Below are positions 57,814-64,000 of a stretch of 64,000 bases of DNA, in pieces. Within the stretch, counting starts at the first letter, position 1. The number at the start of each line of letters is the position of its first letter. Source of the DNA: Echinicola soli (lineage in GTDB: Bacteria; Bacteroidota; Bacteroidia; Cytophagales; Cyclobacteriaceae); the NCBI RefSeq assembly GCF_006575665.1, contig NZ_CP041253.1:4315001-4379000 (forward strand). Reading direction: 5' to 3'. Under the pieces are notes generated by a model, which had not been told where the DNA came from, ran no database searches, and was given only the letters and a program-made list of their open reading frames with translations. The position numbers were made by a program, and so were the translations under genes.

Positions 57814-60261
57814 ATGGCACATCTGATCGACTATATCTGGCAGAGCTCATTCTGCTTGTTATTTTTTTTCGGGATATATTGGGTTTTCCTGAGGAGGGAA
57901 AAAGTATTTGGCTTTACACGGGTATTTTTACTCGTCACACCCGTTTTGGCCTTGCTGTTTCCCCTTATCGAAATTCCAGTGGAATTTTCAAAACCCACCA
58001 TATCCCTGGAAAACACGGACTTTTTACAGTATTTGACTGCGCAAGAGGCGAAAGATGACATAGCAGCAAGCTATGGACTGCCAGAAGTAACGGTAGAAAG
58101 CACCAAACTTCCCATTCTTTTGGAATGGAAAGACTACTTGTTCCTTGGATATGTGGCAATCGCACTTTTACTCACTTTCAGGCTGTTATGGCAATTTCTA
58201 CAGCTAAGACTACTTACTGAAAAGGGCTGGTACCAAACGGTCTTCAATTTGAAAAGCAGTTATTTTTTGATACCGACTTTTGGCCTGGCACCGGTTTTTT
58301 CTTTCTTTAACAGGCTCTTTTGGGACGATAGCCAGCAGCTAAAGCCAGAAGAAAAAGAGCACATCATCAAACACGAAATAGAGCATATCCGTCAGGGACA
58401 TTCCTGGGATATGATGTACTATCAGATATTGAGCATTTTGTTTTGGTTTAATCCGGGTATCCATTTGATGCGGAACGCCTTAATCGACACCCACGAATAT
58501 TCGGCAGATGCCAACGTGGTCAAACAAACCGCAAACAAAGACACCTATACCAATCTTATTGTCAAGATAGCATTTAAGGGACTGGATCTTCCTGTTGGCA
58601 ACTATTTTATAAGATCGACAACCTTAAAACGCATTATGATGATGAAAAGCAACAAAAAGACCAATTGGTTTAAACTACTGATGGTGGTACCCCTGACGGC
58701 CATGTTATTGGCATTGGTCTCCATGAAGACCATTTCCACCTCCAGTTTTTTTGATACTGGATCCAGTATGAGCTTGGCCAATATGAAAGAACTGATCGAG
58801 CAAGCACAGGATACCATCAGCGTGAGCACTAAAGTGATGCACATTCCCAATCCAAAACACTATGAATATGTATCTTCCCTAACAGAGGGAAAAGTCACTG
58901 CGCAGCTTGGAAACCTACAGTATGAAATTGGCAACATTTCAGATGACGAGGAATATGCCGATGTGCTGGAAATGATCAATATTTTCAAACACCACAGCCG
59001 CTTCACCAAAAACTACAACACACCAGATCTCCATACGACCGCGGATATAATGCCCGAGGCAAAAGGTGGCATGGACGAGTGGAATAAGTTTCTATCCAAA
59101 AACCTTAGGTACCCAACAGAGGCAAGAAAGATCGGAATGACTGGTGATATTTACATAGAGTTTGTGGTAAGCAAAGAAGGCAAAGTCCTACACCCCACCC
59201 TTAAACGATCTTTGGGTATGGGCTTGGACGATGAAATCCTGAGAATTTTCTCCTTGGAAAGTATGCCAGAATGGAATCCAGGCATCATCGATGGAAAGCC
59301 CGTCAACACGCTCATGGTCCTTCCCATCAGGTTTAAACTCGATGGAGAAGTGGCCAAGTCGAAGTCATTCTTTGGTACTCCCTCCTACTCATCTGACAAA
59401 GATGTGTTTGACGTAGTAGAAAAAATGCCCGCTCCCCAAGGGGGCATGGAAGGCTGGAGCGAATATATTTCCAGGAACATCGAATATCCTAAAGACGCCA
59501 TGGAAAAAGGCGTAGAAGGGACAGTTTACGTAACCTTTATTGTGGATAAGGATGGCACAACCAGGGATCCCCAGATTTTGAGGGGAATTGGCAGTGGCGC
59601 GGACGAAGAGGCCATGCGCTTGGTCATGAATTCACCTAAGTGGTCCCCTGGTGAACAAAAAGGCACCAATGTCCCTGTGAAAATGAGGCTTCCGATCAAG
59701 TTTGAATTAAACAAAAAAAACAAACCTGTCAAACCCAACAAGCTGGATGAAGTAGTCGTAGTGGGATATGGAGCGGTCACAGAAAATAAAAGCACTTCTC
59801 CTCTACTCAATTATAATACATTCGAAGAGGGAAAAGAACCTTTGTTAGTAATCGCTGGTAAGAAATATCAGAAAGAAAAACTTTCCCACCTATCCCCCGA
59901 GGACATCAAAAGCATCAATGTACTGAAAGATGAATCAGCGTTTGAGAAATATGATGAAGAAGGAAAATATGGTGTGATCGAAATCACACTAAAAGACGGC
60001 GTGTTATGGCCCAGAAAATCCGAGGAAAAATCTACCAGCAATATCCAAAACACAAATAAAGATCTCCCAAAACTAACAATTGGTAAAGACCCTCTATACA
60101 TTGTCGATGGGGCAATCACCAAAAAGTCAGCACTTAAGCATGCATATGGCCCAGATGATATCGAATCCATTTCTGTACTAAAAAATGGAGATGCCATTAA
60201 TCTTTATGGATCCAAGGCTCAAAATGGAGTCATCCAAATCACAACAAAAAACAAGCCGTAA
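57814..60261 (+). CDS. BlaR1-like M56 metallopeptidase fused to TonB and SusC-plug-like domains
   Basis: 815 residues. N-terminal helices (~5-50, ~105-130) precede the zinc motif H-E-I-E-H at 187-191 and another helix at ~280-305. Then come two TonB C-terminal domains (~405-505: 'GGMDEWNKFLSKNLRYPTEA'; ~530-635: 'GGMEGWSEYISRNIEYPKDA'). A 'LDEVVVVGYGAV' segment and two plug-like repeats follow ('PEDIKSINVLKDESA', 'PDDIESISVLKNGDA'). It should sense a periplasmic signal and cleave the BlaI-type repressor. The TonB and plug parts suggest that the signal is tied to outer-membrane transport. Confidence 0.9.
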   Translation: MAHLIDYIWQSSFCLLFFFGIYWVFLRREKVFGFTRVFLLVTPVLALLFPLIEIPVEFSKPTISLENTDFLQYLTAQEAKDDIAASYGLPEVTVESTKLPILLEWKDYLFLGYVAIALLLTFRLLWQFLQLRLLTEKGWYQTVFNLKSSYFLIPTFGLAPVFSFFNRLFWDDSQQLKPEEKEHIIKHEIEHIRQGHSWDMMYYQILSILFWFNPGIHLMRNALIDTHEYSADANVVKQTANKDTYTNLIVKIAFKGLDLPVGNYFIRSTTLKRIMMMKSNKKTNWFKLLMVVPLTAMLLALVSMKTISTSSFFDTGSSMSLANMKELIEQAQDTISVSTKVMHIPNPKHYEYVSSLTEGKVTAQLGNLQYEIGNISDDEEYADVLEMINIFKHHSRFTKNYNTPDLHTTADIMPEAKGGMDEWNKFLSKNLRYPTEARKIGMTGDIYIEFVVSKEGKVLHPTLKRSLGMGLDDEILRIFSLESMPEWNPGIIDGKPVNTLMVLPIRFKLDGEVAKSKSFFGTPSYSSDKDVFDVVEKMPAPQGGMEGWSEYISRNIEYPKDAMEKGVEGTVYVTFIVDKDGTTRDPQILRGIGSGADEEAMRLVMNSPKWSPGEQKGTNVPVKMRLPIKFELNKKNKPVKPNKLDEVVVVGYGAVTENKSTSPLLNYNTFEEGKEPLLVIAGKKYQKEKLSHLSPEDIKSINVLKDESAFEKYDEEGKYGVIEITLKDGVLWPRKSEEKSTSNIQNTNKDLPKLTIGKDPLYIVDGAITKKSALKHAYGPDDIESISVLKNGDAINLYGSKAQNGVIQITTKNKP

Positions 60262-60332
60262 AACGAGCTTCTTTACACCTCTCCCACCGGGATTGCTTTT
60301 AACCATTGATAGAAGCTAGCAATGCAATTTGT

Positions 60333-60402
60333 TGTCAGCCTTAGCGGACCTGTCTAGCCTTCGACTCTACCGGGCAGACAGACAGGTCCGCTCGGGCTGA
60401 CA
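60333..60402. repeat. 70-nt near-perfect hairpin
   Basis: TGTCAGCC then AGCGGACCTGTC pair with GACAGGTCCGCT then GGCTGACA, separated by a 2x2 mismatch, with a 26-nt loop. No T-run follows. It lies 72 bp after the M56 gene. Confidence 0.85.
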
Positions 60403-60529
60403 TCACTTCACTGATAGTTTAAAAGGGATTTCCCTGATCTATCCCCAAAGCATTTGTTGTTCTCTTTTATGGCTATTACCTTAGCATTACCAGATTAAAT
60501 AAATTCTTAAACCGTAAAATCATAAAAAT

Positions 60530-60652
60530 ATGGGCAAAGGAGACATGAAGACCAAAAGAGGTAAAACCCACAGGGGGACCTTTGGTAAAAGCAGACCGCG
60601 TAAAAATCAAAATATAGCTACCAAAAAAGAACAGTCACAAGCCACCAAGTAA
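60530..60652 (+). CDS. 30S ribosomal protein THX (bTHX)
   Basis: 40 residues: it opens M-G-K-G-D-M-K-T-K-R-G-K and continues T-H-R-G-T-F-G-K-S-R-P-R-K-N, the signature of the small basic THX protein bound to the head of the 30S subunit in Bacteroidetes and Thermus. It is too short for routine gene finders. It stands alone, about 270 bp after the M56 gene. The C-terminal tail (N-I-A-T-K-K-E-Q-S-Q-A-T-K) is more acidic and polar than the core. Confidence 0.9.
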   Translation: MGKGDMKTKRGKTHRGTFGKSRPRKNQNIATKKEQSQATK

Positions 60653-60683
60653 GGCTTTCTTTACATTATTTTTAAACACTTAA

Positions 60684-60838
60684 GGGACTGTCTCATAAGT
60701 GGACTTCCGCCAGGCCCCAAAGAAGAGCTTTGGGCTTGATCCAGTGCATAAGTGATCTTTCTATACGTGCAGCAAGCGTTAATCAAGATCCCTTCGTTCG
60801 GCCTGTGATGACGGAATCCGAAAAAATGAGACAGTCTC
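60684..60838 (+). repeat. candidate MITE with GACTGTCTCAT ends
   Basis: GACTGTCTCAT (60686-60696) and its exact inverse ATGAGACAGTC (60826-60836) bound ~150 bp of non-coding DNA; the match extends loosely to CTTCCG / CGGAAT. Such 'GACTGTCTCA' ends are common on IS elements of Bacteroidetes. Only one copy is seen in the window. Confidence 0.55.
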
Positions 60839-60882
60839 TTTTTATTTCCACCACTTTTTGGATGTTGTTTATTTAAAGATCC

Positions 60883-61287
60883 AGGATCAAGCAATATTTC
60901 TGGGGGCAAGAGAAGATTGACATCCATTTGGTATGTCGCCAAGACAGGAAGTACTTTGTAGGAAAGTTCCAAATCTTATGAAAAACAAACAGCTTTGGGT
61001 TTTAGAGAATCTTTGTGGCAAAAAAGAAATCATATTAAAATAAAGGGATTCATGTCCCCAACTTTTCCACTTGTCCCATGCTAACCTCCTAGGGTCATAA
61101 AAGGGGACCAAGCAATATTTCTGGGTGATGAGAGATTTCCAGGTGGTTTTGGTAAGCATATTTCTCTTTAATTTAGCAATAGGAATGCGTGCTCCAGTAT
61201 AAAAAAATCAGCGAAAACCTTATTAAAATGCGCCATCTGCGTGCTATCGAAACCAACCCTAATCCCCCCAACTTTTTCGTTTGATCC
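60883..61287 (+). repeat. long dispersed repeat, copy 3
   Basis: It matches 8171-8583 in the same orientation, with more substitutions in its middle (60960-61090). The second internal GACCAAGCAATATTTCTGG lies at about 61108. It ends CCCCCCAACTTTTTCG and TTGATCC. Confidence 0.75.
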
Positions 61288-61405
61288 AAGATCCACCCGT
61301 TTCACATACATATTCCACTATATAATCTACTATTTGTACTATTACGCAATCCAATCAATCCTTCAGCATCGTAAATAGTTTTCATAAATCACAACTCACT
61401 ATCTT

Positions 61406-62431
61406 ATGAAAACATTAACGAAAGCAATTTTAAGAACAAGCCTCATCGTCCTGCCTACTCTAGGTTTCTATTCCTGTGACAACGATGAGGAAATGGACAT
61501 GCCCGAGAATGAAGTAGCATCCTTATTCGTATCCAGCAATACGAGCGGGATGATTACCATTATTGATTTCTCATCAATGAATGATGTAAGCAGTAGTACT
61601 GTCGCTTCTGCAGGAACAGATGCCGATGGCATCTATTATGATGACCAAAATGACGAAATCATCCAATTGGTACGTTCTGACAATTCCCTCAATGTCTATT
61701 CGGATATCATGGCCTCTATGATGGACAAGGGACTGTCCATTTCATTGGGTCTAAGCGGAACAGGTAGTTTCGCCAGTGGCCGGGAAATCGCGGTTATGGA
61801 TGACATGGTCATCGTAGCAGACTCCCCGGCAGAAGCAAACGGCAACCAAAGCAGCCTTTATGTATACCAAAAAAATGCCAGTGGATTCTCCCTTCTAAAC
61901 ACCTATGAGGTGGATTTTGCCCTGTGGGGCATCCATATAGAAGGTAATACTCTCTATGCCATAGTAGATAAAACAGCGGACTTAGCCGTATTCAATAACT
62001 TCATGGCCAATACTGATGGCATGATCACTCCAGACAAACGCGTTACTATCGAAGGACTCGGAAGGACTCATGGACTGACTTATTCGATGGAAGATGACCT
62101 GATGGTCCTTACCGACATCGGCGAGGCTTCTTCAGATAGCGATGGAGGTTTGGTCATCATCACCGACTTTACCAGCACATTTAACAGCGCAGCAGACGGT
62201 GGCACCATCTCCATGGCTGATCAAGCCAGAATCGAGGGCAATAATACCATGCTGGGAAATCCTGTGGATGTCGCATACAGTGAAGATAGCAAAATGATTT
62301 TCGTCGCAGAAAGAGCCAACGGTGGTGGGAAAGTATTGGTCTACGACTACTTCTCCTCAAACGGCAACCCCGCTCCAGCATATAGCTGGGACGTCGCAGG
62401 TGCTTCTGCCGTTTACTATTACGAGGACTAA
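61406..62431 (+). CDS. beta-propeller-like lipoprotein of unknown function
   Basis: 341 residues with a lipoprotein signal ('SLIVLPTLGFYSCDNDEE', lipobox Cys24). The mature region is acidic with repeated blade-like strands ('VASLFVSSNTSGMITIIDFSSM', 'LYVYQKNASGFSLLNTYEV', 'KMIFVAERANGGGKVLVYDYFSSNG'). It would sit on the outer membrane or cell surface. No enzyme motif is evident; it resembles 'hypothetical protein' propellers of marine Bacteroidetes. A terminator follows at 62506. Confidence 0.75.
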   Translation: MKTLTKAILRTSLIVLPTLGFYSCDNDEEMDMPENEVASLFVSSNTSGMITIIDFSSMNDVSSSTVASAGTDADGIYYDDQNDEIIQLVRSDNSLNVYSDIMASMMDKGLSISLGLSGTGSFASGREIAVMDDMVIVADSPAEANGNQSSLYVYQKNASGFSLLNTYEVDFALWGIHIEGNTLYAIVDKTADLAVFNNFMANTDGMITPDKRVTIEGLGRTHGLTYSMEDDLMVLTDIGEASSDSDGGLVIITDFTSTFNSAADGGTISMADQARIEGNNTMLGNPVDVAYSEDSKMIFVAERANGGGKVLVYDYFSSNGNPAPAYSWDVAGASAVYYYED

Positions 62432-62505
62432 GCGGTAATTGATTTTAATCTAGCTGAAACATTCAATCAATATTTCACAAAAGAGCTACACACCCTTCTA
62501 CTACC

Positions 62506-62537
62506 AAAGGTGCCTTGATTTATTTAGGCACCTTTTT
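62506..62537 (+). terminator. intrinsic terminator after the lipoprotein gene
   Basis: AAAGGTGCC/GGCACCTTT is a 9-bp stem with a 12-nt loop and a T-run following. Confidence 0.85.
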
Positions 62538-62750
62538 ATATTTTGCCCACTTTCGATACCTTTCGAACAATAGGCCAAATACATTGCGCTTTTCAGGGCA
62601 CTATTTCAATTAAGAGCCTCAAAACCTAATTCTCTATCGATTTTATAGGGTTTTATAGAGAGTATTATTTTCAAAAAACTCTTTTTCGAATACTTGCAAA
62701 TTCAAAAATTGGATTGTTACTTTGTGTTATCCTTTACTTTTTAAAAGTAC

Positions 62751-62866
62751 AAGGATTTATACAGAAGAGGTGAGAGACAGGCTCGCAGACCCTCTGGCAA
62801 CCTGGAAAATCCAAGGTGCCAATTCCTGCCGAATGTGAATATCCGCATTTGGAAATATAAATTCTT
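62751..62866 (+). promoter_or_regulatory. SAM-I (S-box) riboswitch upstream of metX
   Basis: P1 is AAGGATTTATA with TATAAATTCTT (62856-62866). P2 pairs AGAGG with CCTCT. The core GGCAACCTGG and AGGTGCCAATTCCTGC are the classic S-box joining regions, and P4 pairs AATGTG with CGCATT. It lies ahead of metX, a methionine-biosynthesis gene, so SAM repression is expected. It ends 5 nt before a short leader ORF and no strong T-run terminator follows. Confidence 0.9.
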
Positions 62867-62871
62867 AAACA

Positions 62872-62994
62872 ATGAATTTTATAAAAAGGATACACACAGC
62901 AATACAACTTCACACACAAATCATCATCGAATTTCTTTTTATCGACAGGGATAACTTCATGCATCGTCGAATGTGCATGTGTATGTGCAACTAA
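62872..62994 (+). CDS. Met/Cys-rich leader peptide ORF (candidate)
   Basis: ATG 62872 opens a 40-codon ORF ending TAA 62992-62994. A nested ATG at 62959 gives an 11-residue peptide, M-H-R-R-M-C-M-C-M-C-N, with 4 Met and 3 Cys codons. The ORF starts 5 nt after riboswitch helix P1 and ends 100 bp before metX. Clustered codons for the pathway end products are typical of attenuation leader peptides. After the stop, short hairpins (AAGGA/TCCTT, GGAC/GTCC, GTGC/GCAC) could be alternative structures controlled by ribosome position. The function is inference; the codon pattern is direct observation. Confidence 0.5.
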   Translation: MNFIKRIHTAIQLHTQIIIEFLFIDRDNFMHRRMCMCMCN

Positions 62995-63094
62995 GGACTC
63001 TCCTTTTGTCCGTATCGGGCACTATAATTTCTTTTATTCCCAATATTGATGATCCCAGTTGACCGAAGTCAACGCTAAACTTAAGAGTAAGAAA

Positions 63095-64000
63095 ATGAAT
63101 CTAACATCACCGTATCTGATTACCGATATGACACAGGAAACATTCCACTGTGAAGAGGAATTAAATCTCGAATCAGGTGAATCACTACCAGGATTTGAGA
63201 TCAGCTATACTACTCAAGGGCATTTGACGCCAAAAAAAGATAATGTCATCTGGGTATTGCACGCACTGACAGGAGATGCCAATGTCCACGAATGGTGGAG
63301 TGGCCTGGTCGGAGAAGACAAGTTTTTTGTTCCTACAAAATACTTCATCGTCTGTGCCAACCTTCTAGGATCATGCTATGGATCCACGCAGCCACTTAGC
63401 GATAATCCCAACACCGGGAAACCATACTATTACGATTTCCCGAACCTGTCCACCCGTGACATGGCCAAGGCATTTGACCGTCTTCGCCAGCATTTGGGAA
63501 TCCAGCAGATAGACACCATCATCGGTGGATCGCTTGGTGGCCAAGTAGCACTTGAATGGTCTTATAATTTACAAGAGCACGTAAAAAAAACGATCATAGT
63601 AGCCTCCAATGCCAAAACCTCCCCTTGGACGATTGGCTTCAATGAGGCCCAAAGAATGGCTATCGAATCGGACAGCACCTGGGGACAGAACTCACCTGAT
63701 GCAGGCAAAAAAGGCCTGGAAGCGGCACGTGCCATCGGCATGCTCAGTTACCGCCATCAGGATATTTTCCATGCCAGCCAAGCCGAAACGGAAGAAAAGA
63801 CAGATCATTTCCGCGTAAGTTCTTATCTGCGCTACCAAGGGCAAAAGCTCTCCAATCGCTTTAACGCCCTCTCCTACTGGGTGCTCACCAAAGCCATGGA
63901 TAGCCATGATCTTGGAAGAGGCAGAGGTGGTACCGCCAAGGCACTTTCAGAGATTAAAGCGAAAGTACTCTCCATCGGGATCAATACAGATTTGCTCTTT
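63095..64000 (+). CDS. metX: homoserine O-acetyltransferase, 3' cut by window edge
   Basis: 302 residues visible, no stop before 64000. The alpha/beta hydrolase fold of MetX is clear: 'VIWVLHALTGDANVHEWWSGLVGE', 'CANLLGSCYGSTQP', the nucleophile Ser146 in 'IIGGSLGGQVALEWS' and 'TIIVASNAKTSPWTIGFNEAQRMAI'. The Asp and His of the triad lie outside the window. It transfers acetyl from acetyl-CoA to homoserine, the first committed step of methionine synthesis. The S-box riboswitch and Met/Cys leader ORF upstream suggest SAM and possibly Met/Cys-tRNA control. Confidence 0.93.
   Translation, partial: MNLTSPYLITDMTQETFHCEEELNLESGESLPGFEISYTTQGHLTPKKDNVIWVLHALTGDANVHEWWSGLVGEDKFFVPTKYFIVCANLLGSCYGSTQPLSDNPNTGKPYYYDFPNLSTRDMAKAFDRLRQHLGIQQIDTIIGGSLGGQVALEWSYNLQEHVKKTIIVASNAKTSPWTIGFNEAQRMAIESDSTWGQNSPDAGKKGLEAARAIGMLSYRHQDIFHASQAETEEKTDHFRVSSYLRYQGQKLSNRFNALSYWVLTKAMDSHDLGRGRGGTAKALSEIKAKVLSIGINTDLLF

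Follow-up and report, generated by a model that had tools for sequence, protein, structure and literature searches.

Organization of the metX leader

In Echinicola soli, metX is preceded by a SAM-I riboswitch and, immediately behind it, by a short open reading frame (ORF) that ends in alternating methionine and cysteine codons. This arrangement raises the question of whether the two elements act on the gene as separate devices or as parts of one regulator. A first-pass annotation proposed two sulfur sensors in series, one reading SAM and the other the charging of tRNA-Met or tRNA-Cys.

The window, meaning the whole stretch of 64,000 nucleotides analysed, corresponds to positions 4315001–4379000 of the single-contig genome; features lie on the + strand unless stated otherwise. 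The SAM-I aptamer spans 62754–62863 (Rfam RF00162). Its score of 80 bits, against a gathering threshold of 44.4, places it within the SAM-I covariance model, and SAM binding and repression are predicted here. The P1 helix is formed by the strands 62754–62761 (GATTTATA) and 62856–62863 (TATAAATT), and is extended outward by three base pairs between AAG (62751–62753) and CTT (62864–62866). The first-pass span of 62751–62866 is therefore the Rfam aptamer plus this extension.

The leader ORF (62872–62994, 40 codons and TAA) encodes MNFIKRIHTAIQLHTQIIIEFLFIDRDNFMHRRMCMCMCN. Its ATG is located 5 nt downstream of the extended helix and 8 nt past the end of the Rfam aptamer. The product ends in M-H-R-R-M-C-M-C-M-C-N, with the codons ATG-TGC-ATG-TGT-ATG-TGC at 62971–62988, and 100 nt then separate the leader from metX (63095–64000, start ATG at 63095), which encodes homoserine O-acetyltransferase and runs out of the window. 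The gene matches TIGR01392 with 310 bits, the cut-off of 500 applying to the whole protein and the gene being cut by the window edge. A homoserine dehydrogenase gene lies downstream of metX, beyond the window. The order of aptamer, Met/Cys-tailed ORF and metX read in the first pass is thus confirmed.

On the 5' side of the aptamer, folding and class-wide covariation define a hairpin, P0, at 62729–62756, with arms 62729–62740 and 62744–62756. Its 3' arm takes in GAT, the first three nucleotides of the P1 5' strand. Past the leader stop codon, a short hairpin, GTCC(G)/(C)GGGC, with a T-rich stretch behind it, is located at 63008–63020 and represents a possible terminator.

Farther upstream, an ORF (61406–62431) is followed by an intrinsic-terminator-like hairpin (AAAGGTGCC..GGCACCTTTTT) at 62506–62538, which would isolate the metX transcript. 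On the − strand, a long, nearly perfect inverted repeat (60334–60401) gave a mir-2071 match far below threshold; it is hardly a miRNA, and perhaps a terminator or a repeat. In an Rfam search of 60000–64000 for a T-box (E up to 1), only the SAM riboswitch and this chance match were returned, and a T-box or another known RNA as the second sensor was rejected on this ground.

Distribution of the arrangement

The E. soli genome has four SAM-I aptamers, and all 11 genus genomes likewise have four each (44 loci, all read). The 11 metH loci have a canonical P1 (CTTATC/GATGAG), and two of them carry an 11-codon ORF at +8. The remaining 33 have an AU-rich P1 of the GATTTATA/TATAAATT type, hereafter AU-P1, and a short ORF 6–9 nt downstream. 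They are located before metX/metY, metZ and a gene for a 163-residue protein without family, 11 loci each; genome G002 has an additional small ORF between the leader and metX/metY.

We define a Cys leader as a short ORF with at least two Cys among its last 12 codons, which 16 of the 33 genus leaders satisfy. These include all 11 before the 163-residue protein (for example KRCCC-stop), none of the 11 before metZ, and five of the 11 before metX/metY, with tails such as RMCMCMCN, RMCMCN and RMCFCMC. The tail expected from the first reading is therefore kept in part of the genus, but the other six metX/metY leaders carry Met with zero or one Cys (MICMLMPKTS and similar). Outside the genus the expectation holds more broadly, in 33 of 40 family leaders, 49 of 80 named metY loci and 17 of 17 AU-P1 leaders beyond the family.

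The 163-residue protein is a candidate new protein of sulfur metabolism. In E. soli its gene (L161:631–1122) is preceded by a SAM-I aptamer and by a leader whose tail is RCCC, and related genes have the same placement in all 11 genus genomes. The protein has no match in Pfam, NCBIfam or the PDB, and a PADLOC match with an E value of 0.009 was disregarded.

SAM-I aptamers are present in 116 of 118 genomes of the family. Our family set of 141 loci (44 from the genus and 97 from outside it, the latter taken from the matches listed) divides into 74 AU-P1 loci and 67 with another P1. An ATG lies 6–10 nt past the aptamer in 71 of the 74, against 6 of the 67 others at 5–15 nt. Across Bacteroidia, 239 loci were read as a non-random sample, in which a Cys leader occurs at 66 of 101 AU-P1 loci and 1 of 138 others. 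The class set comprised 30 automatic loci, 40 chosen from the matches listed so as to favour families with several riboswitches, and 29 further matches; L222 and L354 are the same place and were counted once. Among the 101 AU-P1 loci, the short ORF has fewer than two Cys in 25 (one of these, L222, is really metX directly behind the aptamer) and is absent from six.

In the named metY loci (the best 80 of 578 relatives), an AU-P1 aptamer comes with a leader that has at least two tail Cys in 49 cases and with a leader poorer in Cys in 17; three more have AU-P1 and no leader, three have another P1, and in eight a regular expression found no aptamer. Pararhodonellum marinum (Cyclobacteriaceae), Pontibacter lucknowensis, Chryseolinea serpens and Imperialibacter sp. 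are named species with the arrangement. The 27 AU-P1 loci outside the family of the window (f1) include 17 Cys leaders, five long ORFs at the leader position and five loci without an ATG. These Cys leaders belong to families f4, f8 and f9, and f97 has one with another P1. A strict sequence pattern gave 16 matches in 14 of 395 phylum genomes and added families f2 and f7; being too strict to measure breadth, it served as a source of leads. The combination of a SAM-I aptamer and a leader with sulfur-amino-acid codons is real and occurs in several families.

Eleven of the 17 low-Cys metY loci are labelled Algoriphagus (L236, L244, L248, L257, L258, L269, L271, L275, L278, L292 and L295). They keep the aptamer, the spacing and the leader, with fewer than two tail Cys, and the distance from aptamer to metY is just 132–197 nt. 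These leaders may form a natural loss series of the Cys tail.

Several other loci depart from the common layout. At L077 (G072) and L132 (G085), the first gene past the SAM-I aptamer and Cys leader is a ferredoxin-like ORF (INCGACEPECPN, INCAACEPECPN). In family f2, L213 and L214 have an AU-rich P1 (TTTTTATA/TATAAAAA) and an upstream hairpin with no ATG close by, perhaps another kind of platform. Also in f2, L152 has a SAM-I-like aptamer by pattern and a leader ending SCCCCC, and another ORF starts 360 nt on.

A proposed two-input model

These arrangements probably represent a cis-acting regulator with two inputs that serves sulfur amino acid genes, a SAM gate being combined with a Cys/Met-codon leader. 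Comparison between loci points to the gate and the codon sensor; the polarity of the gate and the termination step are what we infer from them.

At low SAM, the first RNA made would fold as P0 and tie up the start of the P1 5' strand, leaving the leader start region open and presumably allowing the leader to be translated. With SAM bound, P1 would close, extend toward the leader ATG and block initiation. A shortage of charged Cys-tRNA or Met-tRNA would stall the ribosome at the Cys/Met codons of the leader end. The stalled ribosome might then stop the RNA near or past the stop codon from forming a terminator, or keep Rho off. Stalling at low SAM would let transcription reach metX/metY, and high SAM, or a plentiful supply of both amino acids, would lead to an early stop. 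The expected logic is ON at low SAM AND low charging with either Cys or Met.

Such control would be sensible for metX/metY. MetY-type enzymes convert O-acetylhomoserine and sulfide to homocysteine, and homocysteine can feed cysteine. The metY stretch matches the NCBIfam subfamily O-acetylhomoserine aminocarboxypropyltransferase/cysteine synthase.

RNA pairing and termination past the leader

The first pass also proposed that a stalled ribosome switches between short hairpins just after the stop codon. The segments named exist (GTGC 62985–62988 with GCAC 63019–63022, and GGAC 62995–62998 with GTCC 63008–63011), but GGAC is not conserved in the three other aligned metX leaders. The GGAC/GTCC pair was accordingly rejected as a ribosome-set switch. 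In the window hairpin (63008–63011/63017–63020), four base pairs are kept in four species, one of them varying as UA/CG/UG; its score is reached by shuffled sequences in 262 of 500 cases and hence proves nothing.

Across 43 loci, the final 33 nt of a Cys leader pair better with the next 75 nt than with swapped partners (duplex 11/2000, joint fold 0/2000), and a control segment earlier in the ORF also pairs slightly better than permuted (45/2000). Hairpins with a U-rich tail are more stable than expected at the 61 loci with at least three Cys (−7.74 vs −4.72 shuffled), lying below all 12 shuffles in 21 of 61 where 4.7 were expected. Leaders with fewer than two Cys are equally enriched (6 of 17, 1.3 expected), which counts against the model. 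A uniform intrinsic terminator was looked for past the leaders and not found; this candidate was rejected, as the hairpins with U-rich tails vary between loci.

Such heterogeneity lends some weight to a variant of the same gate in which the second step is Rho-dependent, with leader translation and stalling at its end shielding the RNA and no intrinsic terminator involved. Leader bodies and spacers are G-poor (C/G ratios of 1.51 and 1.80 vs 1.05 in genes, 54 loci), which would suit Rho, although composition is a weak sign, and the excess of hairpins with U-rich tails over shuffles speaks against this version. We regard the Rho variant as a possibility to be taken seriously, if tentatively.

The aptamer as a probable gate on leader translation

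The SAM gate of the two-input model involves a structure that competes with P1. We folded the 30 nt 5' of the aptamer together with its first 4 nt. At the 74 AU-P1 loci the mean is −7.19 vs −3.27 kcal/mol for shuffled sequences, native being lower in 72, and members of the genus range from −8.4 to −10.7 kcal/mol. At the 67 loci with another P1 the mean is −2.34 vs −2.24, lower in 31. When P0 arms were swapped between the 74 AU-P1 loci, the native mean was reached in 0 of 1000 permutations (swapped −4.11, sd 0.25), a test that, like the other permutation tests here, ignores the relatedness of loci. The signal holds within two subclasses with like sequence beside P1 (14 and 19 loci) and is absent from the other-P1 class (243/1000). 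Outside f1, the same test gave 0/1000 for the 27 AU-P1 loci and 78/1000 for the other class.

P0 pairs at least two of the first four aptamer nucleotides, which belong to the P1 5' strand, at 65 of 74 AU-P1 loci and 20 of 67 others. Since they share these nucleotides, P0 and P1 are mutually exclusive, at least in part. On its other side, P1 extends outward toward the ATG by 2.31 contiguous pairs vs 1.04 permuted (sd 0.18, 52 loci), and outside f1 by 2.18 vs 1.05 (0/1000, 22 loci). The window is a member of the CT/CC subclass, and there no such excess is seen (2.53 vs 2.53, 15 loci), which counts against the gate.

Further evidence comes from family f8, where the own ATG of metX is located at +11 to +13 in L348, L354, L365 and L367, without a leader. 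These genes were identified as metX by TIGR01392 (232–248 bits on the first 200 residues); P0 is weak in L365 (−1.5 kcal/mol). The occurrence of a leader or of metX at one place behind the same platform is best read as a gate on translation initiation. In the same family, L353 has a long ORF at +9 in the place of the leader, and a Pfam scan of its first 100 residues gave no match.

We lean toward a composite gate in several Bacteroidia families, in which SAM-I and a 5'-side switching hairpin would control initiation of an attenuator leader and the ORF behind them is exchangeable: a leader in most loci, metX in some f8 genomes and, in Algoriphagus, leaders that no longer carry the Cys tail.

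The polarity of the gate could in principle be the reverse. Without SAM, the P1 3' strand would pair with the first leader codons and hide the start, and SAM would free the leader; Cys/Met sensing would then operate only at high SAM and low SAM would mean read-through (OR logic). Indeed, in 23 of 73 leaders, with 4.0 expected, the first codons could pair with the P1 3' strand by complementarity over at least 6 nt, the window included by sequence. By inspection, however, this complementarity is concentrated in some clades and is not general. Moreover, metX directly behind the same kind of P1 in the four f8 loci would be activated by SAM, contrary to known SAM feedback; SAM should repress metX there, which fits a SAM-OFF gate. 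Computed opening energies over −8 to +3 are 3.91 kcal/mol in the SAM state vs 2.51, with SAM costlier in 49 of 73 loci and cheaper in 12, but over −5 to +3 the two are equal (costlier in 22, cheaper in 23). The calculations would thus favour SAM-OFF only in part and do not settle the polarity. Taken together, we consider the reverse polarity unlikely.

The same observations bear on two independent devices in series, the aptamer working through a platform of its own and the leader separately. Both elements are present, as the first reading held. That they act independently is improbable, given that the near-fixed spacing of 6–10 nt and P0 are both restricted to the AU-P1 class, and given the exchange of leader and metX at the same place. 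The near-fixed distance from P1 to ATG and the 5' hairpin competing with P1 suggest that the aptamer most likely decides whether the leader is translated.

Codon content of the leader tails

The second input of the model concerns the codons of the tails. Clustered in-frame codons for amino acids of the regulated pathway are what identifies a leader-peptide attenuator, and such clusters are found here. In the 40 family leaders from outside the genus, Cys accounts for 30.1% of codons in the 12-codon tail vs 2.1% elsewhere, and Met for 9.7% vs 1.2%. The 143 in-frame Cys codons compare with a shuffle mean of 26.4 and a maximum of 43, so the clustering noticed in the first pass is beyond chance. 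Its reading of the tail as Met/Cys codons is borne out in that both are enriched, but the dominant codon is Cys, as in the tails FCCCCCCM and ACCCCCMCC, and Met comes second.

A very doubtful alternative is that the TGY run is maintained as RNA structure rather than as codons. The run does pair with downstream RNA, and in 16 closer, ungapped pairs the Cys columns comprise 31 identical and no synonymous codons. Against this, TGY counts by frame over the final 36 nt of the 40 leaders are 143/34/10. In 39 independent pairs drawn from 140 distinct leaders, Cys columns keep the same codon in 100 cases, a synonymous one in 33 and a replacement in 33, and changes at codon positions 1/2/3 number 22/28/58 in Cys columns and 301/276/392 in other columns, an excess at the third position obtained from a protein-guided alignment that favours matching Cys columns. 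Aligned metX leaders, in addition, vary by one in-frame copy of Met-Cys, two relatives having one pair fewer than the M-C-M-C-M-C of the window. Frame bias and the in-frame indel favour codons over RNA structure. The proposal that the ORF end is conserved as codons, and not only as RNA, is supported to this extent, but pairing of the same RNA letters is also seen.

That the leader yields a Cys-rich peptide acting as a protein, for instance in metal binding, is suggested by its C-termini but highly improbable, as the tail keeps its place beside the stop codon in leaders that otherwise differ freely in length and sequence, and the leader of the window has no match in Pfam or NCBIfam.

Comparison with known systems

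The first-pass annotation judged the pairing unusual, and among the open-access papers listed by our searches we found none that describes a SAM riboswitch combined with a Cys or Met leader ORF. If the model is true, two inputs would here be combined naturally in one gate: the metabolite riboswitch would determine whether the amino-acid sensor comes into play, in a phylum without Shine-Dalgarno sequences. SAM-I would gain a 5'-side expression platform, it would become directly testable how translation and termination are coupled in Bacteroidota, and the roughly 140 distinct short ORFs collected in this analysis would be explained. In the parts of the sources consulted, initiation in Bacteroidota is described as independent of Shine-Dalgarno sequences and tuned by mRNA structure (PMC6847099), and transcriptome studies mention leader-peptide-like ORFs or attenuation in general terms (PMC9723704, PMC7366714).

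With the SAM-I (S-box) family RF00162, the arrangement shares the sequence and fold of the aptamer and its location upstream of methionine biosynthesis genes. It differs by the AU-rich P1, the competing 5' hairpin P0 and a leader start codon adjoining P1. Cys leader attenuators such as uORFC-8-2 before cysS in Rhodobacterales (PMC8632094, as far as consulted) likewise have a short ORF, clustered codons and pairing at the codons, and those of Actinobacteria (PMC1262725, in the portion seen) a short ORF in which codons for the regulated amino acid cluster. Here, in contrast, a metabolite aptamer precedes the ORF at a short, nearly fixed distance; and uORFC-8-2 is described in that portion of its source with a 3'-end U run in all cases, whereas our loci have no uniform terminator.

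A riboswitch that governs a translated uORF needed by the downstream gene is known from the B12 riboswitch–uORF–ppe2 system of Mycobacterium tuberculosis (PMC11260477, in the sections available). There the ligand is another one, and overlapping ORFs are coupled by termination–reinitiation, unlike here; the uORF has a C-terminal poly-proline stretch, and those sections make no mention of amino-acid sensing.

Two further systems combine SAM with tRNA. The SAM-I riboswitch of Xanthomonas campestris shares a tRNA-related second input, uncharged tRNA-fMet, and translational control of methionine genes, but the uncharged tRNA binds the expression platform itself, and the term 'leader peptide' is absent from the text consulted (PMC7270179). 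Tandem T-box and SAM riboswitches in ssu operons of Bacillota place SAM and tRNA charging on one transcript (PMC12452182, in the part consulted). Both sensors are RNA in that case, whereas here the putative charging sensor is a translated ORF and no T-box was found. Each part of the present arrangement thus belongs to a kind already described; what appears to be new is the way the parts are coupled and the P0 switch on the 5' side.
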